Part shown: positions 16,820 to 17,010 of the stretch, piece by piece | How the letters are laid out: each line of letters starts with the position of its first letter | Position numbering within the stretch: the stretch's first letter is position 1 | Source: Apostichopus japonicus | Lineage: Eukaryota; Echinodermata; Holothuroidea; Aspidochirotida; Stichopodidae | Direction: 5' to 3' | Length of the DNA: 64,000 bases | Assembly (NCBI RefSeq): GCF_037975245.1 | Contig: NC_092574.1 | Location: 7,564,213-7,628,212 of the forward strand | Made by a program: the position numbers and the translations under genes | Notes under the pieces: model-generated | What the model saw: the letters and a program-made list of their open reading frames with translations, nothing else | What the model was told of the DNA's origin: nothing | Database searches by the model: none

Positions 16820-17010
<191 letters not shown>

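Follow-up and report, generated by a model that had tools for sequence, protein, structure and literature searches.

Starships, found in fungi, are giant elements that carry many genes and rely on a tyrosine recombinase mechanism. Among the transposons bounded by terminal inverted repeats (TIRs), the Pack-MULEs of plants are Mutator-like elements (MULEs) that hold pieces of host genes and are moved in trans; those first reported, in the summary given by PMC6431247, contained gene fragments and none was longer than 7 kb. In animals, the MULEs Phantom, Ghost and Spectre combine TIRs with a MULE-type transposase, and the complete Spectre element, as outlined in PMC6446971, has two ORFs (zinc finger and transposase), 74-bp TIRs and an 8-bp target-site duplication. 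At a very different size, Teratorn, a piggyBac-herpesvirus of fish, is described in PMC6431247 as a giant TIR DNA transposon of 41-182 kb. According to the same overview, transposition efficiency falls as the cargo grows, although cargoes of 100-200 kb have nonetheless been mobilized (PMC6431247).

The locus considered here lies in a window of 64,000 nucleotides from the holothuroid Apostichopus japonicus (contig NC_092574.1, positions 7,564,213 to 7,628,212), for which the original prediction, made from the letters alone, had pointed to an in-frame stop codon in a FES/FER kinase gene. The stop codon of this copy is real and, by itself, it is ordinary decay; the element family in which it travels is the more interesting finding. 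The explanation that we prefer, with a probability of roughly 85%, is that the TAA belongs to a decayed passenger, a FES/FER-class SH2-kinase gene carried by a giant TIR transposon, likely a MULE.

The kinase gene of the window

Seven kinase-gene exons follow one another in order on the minus strand (Table 1), as detected by tblastn with human FER as query, and their boundaries were afterwards read by hand from the sequence. The family assignment originally proposed holds for the stop-bearing exon (K5) and for its neighbours. With the stop read as Tyr, K5 finds human FES as its best solved relative (E 5.7e-17), the closest solved match of the SH2 exon is the SH2 domain of FER (E 2e-14), and that of the Gly-loop exon is the FES kinase (E 5e-16). 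Solved-structure matches and tblastn over the exons both give an SH2 domain followed by a tyrosine kinase most like FES/FER. The exons for the C-lobe are present 13 kb downstream of K5 (3746-3624 and 3078-2936), a K5-K6 distance that amounts to ~12-14 kb in the other copies compared.

Table 1. Features of the window, in window coordinates
Feature	Position	Strand	Evidence
Right-hand part of the 66.5 kb TIR-bounded element	1..37566	.	shared copy end; left terminus; TIR matches
Last exon ...RPNFSEIKTAMKKIHKIFK, with its own stop codon	2936..3078	-	tblastn, reading
C-lobe exon K6	3624..3746	-	tblastn, reading
13 kb intron with three tandem arrays (13104-16466, 9471-12581, 4741-6518)	3747..16819	-	
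HRD/DFG/activation-loop exon K5; in-frame TAA; surplus T at 16821	16820..16978	-	reading, tblastn, Pfam
TAA at the activation-loop Tyr position	16888..16890	-	reading
Kinase exon K3, GGDLLKLL...CIHR	17624..17747	-	tblastn, Pfam
Gly-loop/VAVK exon K2; surplus base ~18630	18431..18639	-	tblastn, FES match
SH2 exon b and start of the kinase domain, ends ...KLGQ, phase 0	19699..19869	-	tblastn, reading
SH2 exon a	20306..20509	-	Pfam SH2, E 1.6e-13; tblastn
Second block of the same subterminal satellite as 36401..37181	32796..33239	.	
Subterminal satellite, TIR-like motifs (GTGTTTCGACAACA units), length differs between copies	36401..37181	.	
Right TIR, 33-bp core, one base changed, GGCTGGGG...	37534..37566	-	copy comparison, TIR matches
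Right target-site duplication CAAGTCAGAG	37567..37576	.	flank reading

No F-BAR (FCH) domain was matched by Pfam in the three minus-strand frames of 20580-35000, nor was one recovered upstream by tblastn with human FER. In this regard, SH2-kinase-only forms of these proteins exist, FerT being an example. Upstream of the SH2 exon, two minus-strand stretches at 25460-25750 and 26946-27182 look like coding sequence and are alike in five copies, the first being interrupted by a stop in two of the five and the second, on the 5' side, in a single one; neither matches a Pfam family above the cut-off, and both are possible 5' exons of the kinase gene. Inside the 13 kb intron, the array at 13104-16466 is made of ten tandem copies of a 337-bp unit (97% matches) that resembles a tRNA-derived SINE, and the arrays at 4741-6518 and 9471-12581 are built from units of ~301-317 bp. 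An Rfam scan of the window returned 0 matches.

A close reading of K5 (minus strand, 16978-16820), which is bounded by an acceptor ...ttgacAG/A and a donor G/GTAAAG, places the in-frame TAA (16890-16888) at the activation-loop Tyr position of the FES/FER-class SH2-kinase, exactly as had been proposed there with insect FPS, said to read SREEEEY, as a comparison. The window copy carries two single-base frameshifts besides the TAA, three lesions in all. Upstream of the TAA, one surplus base at about 18630 shifts the frame of K2 (18639-18431) inside the Gly loop; downstream of it, one surplus T at 16821, common only to this copy and to the C19 copy L002 among the 31 copies read, makes K5 end in phase 2. 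Because of this T, the end of the exon does not fit K6, which begins in phase 1. Moreover, translation of the window copy would be expected to terminate soon after the SH2 domain, ahead of the TAA, because the Gly-loop frameshift comes first. An intact activation-loop Tyr and an intact Gly loop both occur among sibling copies, and neither is found in the window copy.

Stop-bearing and tyrosine-bearing copies

A search of the genome (671.6 Mb, 35 contigs) recovered at least 31 copies of K5 on five contigs, with 90-100% identity. Most of them lie on C4, C14, C19 and C20, and some are clustered (three at C19:30.05 Mb and two at C4:25.66-25.68 Mb). The codon at the Tyr position, read in all 31, is TAA in 15 copies, TAG in 2 and TAT in 14, the last figure bearing out the idea that a Tyr codon had turned into a stop. 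All TAT copies except L054 and L055, which are frameshifted upstream, are open through K5 (12 of 14). A 1-base deletion is found downstream of the stop in 8 of the 15 TAA copies. The Gly-loop frameshift occurs in 9 of the 15 loop exons paired with stop-bearing copies, the window included (six read as DNA and three inferred from the start of the match); it is absent from five, partial or unclear in one, and present also in a TAT copy (L036/L060).

In a FastTree tree of the 31 K5 copies with the stop column removed, most stops fall into one derived group, with L045 and L051 apart from it. This tree, built on about 275 bases, is compatible with one origin of the stop or with several, and its pairing of L046 with L034 has the look of an alignment artefact. 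Predictions of 'FER' genes in this genome would for the most part be copies of the repeat.

These counts bear directly on the two escapes that the original prediction had left to the gene, a wrong base and a codon that is read through. The view that a functional FER gene was miscalled or misassembled fits the fact that TAA is a single substitution away from the Tyr codon of 14 copies, yet the error would have had to strike at 15 separate genomic places, with TAG at 2 more, and the window copy has two additional lesions, of which the surplus T at 16821 recurs in C19 copy L002. Altogether, the probability of such an error is negligible. In the case of programmed read-through, UAA would be decoded as Tyr to keep the kinase, or would yield a regulated truncated isoform. 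Insertion of Tyr at UAA by a near-cognate tRNA is known in principle, and the exons that follow the stop in the window are open. Nevertheless, reading through the TAA would not by itself yield a kinase, because a frameshift lies upstream of it and the window frame is shifted both before and after the stop. The same Gly-loop frameshift precedes the stop in 9 of the 15 loop exons overall (window included), the 1-base deletion follows it in 8 of the 15 TAA copies, and constraint at the TAA loci is relaxed (pN/pS 0.48), all of which makes programmed read-through highly improbable.

The wider expectation of a host FER gene that had lost its C-lobe is likewise abandoned, since the exon occurs in at least 31 copies at dispersed places and the window copy sits inside a 66.5 kb TIR element. 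Truncation of a host gene was also rejected on account of the two further frameshifts.

The giant TIR element and its relatives

The whole element that holds the window copy is C14:7535292-7601778, with its left end 28.9 kb to the left of the window (L062). The start of the window, tried as the end of the unit, was discarded, as both the homology and the element extend that far beyond it. The TIRs of the element are imperfect, with a 3-base insertion in the left one and one changed base in the right one, and its left flank ends in CAAGTCGGAG, of which 9 of 10 bases equal the right duplication CAAGTCAGAG (one mismatch). Four other copies, compared after fetching 50 kb around each, align piecewise with the window, broken by indels. 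Three of them align from window base 1 and the C4 copy from ~9.7 kb, which is the edge of the fetched sequence, and all four end at 37566-37570. In 5 of 5 sequences the shared terminus reads ...TGTTGTCGAAACACCTTGGAACTAACC(T/C)CAGCC and is followed by divergence, with one base different in the C20 copy and the last 29 bases repeated in the C19 copy. The left terminus of this C19 copy was sought and not found.

Some further details of these copies can be mentioned. The terminal 29 bases of the C19 copy form a tandem repeat at its very end (L012:9822-9888). A 4.7 kb insertion of the window element (L062:4912-9634, window about -25088 to -20366) is absent from the C19 copy; it carries long minus-strand ORFs and is probably a nested transposon. 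The C19 copy also lacks a further stretch, from about -8416 to -1882. Just beyond the right end of the element, a histone-deacetylase-like gene starts on the plus strand (38345-41900), whose first exon matches PF00850 at E 4.9e-5, below the cut-off, and whose later exons were recognized by eye.

A TIR pattern of 22 bases, searched with 3 mismatches at most, gave 149 matches genome-wide (76 forward and 73 reverse), compared with 0 and 0 for the reversed pattern used as control. Among the 100 of these 149 matches that were listed, many form inverted pairs, either 5.8-14 kb or 31-165 kb apart. Perfect duplications of 9-10 bp flank 8 of the 10 other family members with flanks read, including all four short elements and four of the six that carry the kinase (43.7, 47.2, 50.8 and 54.9 kb); no duplication was seen at the remaining two, which measure 80.9 and 61.7 kb. 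The family shows TIRs together with target-site duplications at dispersed sites, the mark of a TIR DNA transposon. With respect to the 100 listed matches, 13 of the 31 K5 copies, in 11 elements, lie between two of them and 5 have one at their side; none is near the other 13, which are hence not proven to lie inside elements. In this count L008 is placed between two matches, of which the left one is the inner motif only, and L043 and L044 are placed near none, their nearest matches being on the wrong side and part of an unrelated short element. At C19:30006633-30086276, three copies of the kinase exon, spaced by 3.5-4.1 kb, sit within a single TIR pair of 79.6 kb, probably as a result of internal tandem duplication.

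The kinase is accompanied by a second gene. In 30 of the 31 copies the opposite strand holds a SET-domain exon, 17-31 kb away on the 3' side of the kinase exon, a pairing that uses the best 45 of 139 SET places, the other rows including none near C4:25.40 Mb. One SET exon is common to several kinase exons in L033-L035, in L005 and L040, and in L048 and L053. A rival account is segmental duplication of a host FER-SET locus in which no transposition took part, and the concentration of the copies on C4, C14, C19 and C20, some of them close together, agrees with it. This account is contradicted for the elements with target duplications, and may yet apply to copies that are neighbours or that lack TIR matches. 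The exact common terminus in 5 of 5 copies, the TIRs and the perfect duplications at four kinase-carrying elements render it improbable as the general explanation.

As regards the superfamily, the duplications measure 9 or 10 bp and are free of mismatches in 8 of the 10 elements; this size falls within the 8-11 bp that PMC6446971 gives for MULEs, and a Mutator type is most likely on the evidence of the duplications and of the transposase matches. A 7.5 kb member on C12, read in part, contains frameshifted ORFs with DATYKT and MLDYSEQEYQALHAVFPG. They score below threshold in Pfam (PF21056, 24.5 for a cut-off of 27.2; PF10551, 18.5 for a cut-off of 27.6), and these transposase pieces are nearest to the ZSWIM RNaseH-like model. 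The genome holds 38 matches to PF10551, of which 35 lie outside the listed TIR pairs and three, all above the cut-off, inside them: C22:19236974 (pair of 30.9 kb), C9:36441554 (91 kb) and C16:896245 (9.5 kb). A rough hand count, in which the listed pairs cover ~1.1 Mb of the 671.6 Mb genome, puts the chance expectation for such matches below 0.1. The element could instead come from a different TIR superfamily, such as KDZ/Zisupton or hAT, in which pieces of MULE transposase were nested, a view favoured by the sub-threshold C12 scores with their ZSWIM RNaseH-like affinity and by the small share, 3 of 38, of PF10551 matches inside listed pairs. The size of the duplications, which suits MULEs (PMC6446971), and the occurrence of the three matches in separate TIR pairs against so low a chance expectation make it unlikely.

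No transposase match was obtained across all 66.5 kb of the window's element, a weak test given that the query sequences are decayed, and Pfam returned none in the three minus frames of window 20580-35000, in the six frames of window 28400-33300 or at the left end of the C19 copy (4.9 kb in six frames). As the element, which holds host-like kinase and SET exons, lacks such a match, it was probably moved in trans.

A likely native gene, selection and comparison with known systems

The sole copy with no SET neighbour is the one at C4:25.40 Mb. No listed TIR match occurs within 170 kb of it, a situation shared with 12 other copies. Its K2 matches the query at 100% over the whole length, K3 and K5 are both intact (TAT at the Tyr position), and K6 is likewise open. 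With these four exons (K2, K3, K5 and K6) and the absence of SET and TIR matches as the basis, this copy (C4:25.39-25.41 Mb) is likely the native FER gene. In a protein search with FER as query, 150 of 455 candidates were scored, and none of these was a FER-class exon from outside the family; the two better-scoring matches, on C2, are 48% identical.

Sequence comparison of the copies gives some indication of how the kinase evolved. For K3 and K5 together, pN/pS is 0.12 among the 6 TAT loci and 0.48 among 9 TAA loci, a contrast that is weaker for K5 alone (0.32 for 14 TAT and 0.54 for 15 TAA copies). Compared with the other five TAT loci, the copy at C4:25.40 Mb has 6-11 synonymous and 0-5 amino-acid differences, and the branch of L042/L059, a copy with a SET neighbour, shows ~6 synonymous and 0 amino-acid changes by hand count, a pattern whose chance under neutrality is ~8e-5, from small numbers. 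The K2 protein is identical at three places (C4:25395420, C19:26718068 and C19:27074212). In five of the six TAT loci (L056, L057, L059, L060 and L061) a lesion is found in K2 or K3, and C4:25.40 Mb is the only one that has none in the parts seen. Since the Tyr copies show few amino-acid changes, constraint seems to have acted on the cargo kinase during part of its time on the element, before copies with a stop spread.

A family that consists of defined ends, TIRs, 9-10 bp duplications, many sites, a fixed kinase-SET order and widely shared stops is what is observed. Under the passenger explanation, the units of 44-67 kb would be moved by a MULE transposase that related elements provide in trans. 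An ancestral element would have captured the host FER gene, introns included, from a native locus that is probably C4:25.39-25.41 Mb, and the cargo kinase would have been under purifying selection during part of the life of the element. Copies devoid of the activation-loop Tyr codon (TAA, or TAG in two), often frameshifted, would then have been amplified as passengers. A different reading assigns the cargo a lasting role. A giant animal Mutator-like family (44-67 kb, possibly more) might keep a working SH2-tyrosine kinase and a SET protein as long-standing genes, under purifying selection as useful to the element or its host, and the stop-bearing copies would be a kinase-dead, non-autonomous later group like the defective subfamilies of other transposons. 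We consider this tentatively, with the odds somewhat against it.

Set beside FES/FER kinases, the passenger gene keeps the SH2 and kinase domains, the family motifs and the exon order, but the window copy has a stop and two frameshifts, with no F-BAR found upstream. The apparent native gene, the Tyr copies and the stop-bearing copies form a natural series in which selection on the cargo genes of a transposon can be tested. Searches of the open-licence PMC literature turned up no account of giant MULEs in animals with a kinase or SET gene as cargo.

As for the giant elements, Teratorn has other ends than those described here, and where Pfam scans were made they matched no viral genes; Starships differ from this family in that TIRs with target duplications are found here. 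Phantom, Ghost and Spectre are animal MULEs for which the account in PMC6446971, as far as it extends, describes neither giant size nor kinase cargo. With Pack-MULEs these elements would share a TIR-bounded, Mutator-like build, host gene sequence inside it and movement in trans, whereas the elements of this animal reach 44-67 kb and contain a multi-exon, intron-containing SH2-kinase gene together with a SET-domain gene. Mutator-like elements are known for small gene pieces; here, four units of 44-55 kb, each with perfect duplications and at a separate site of an animal genome, carry a kinase exon and a SET exon in fixed position.
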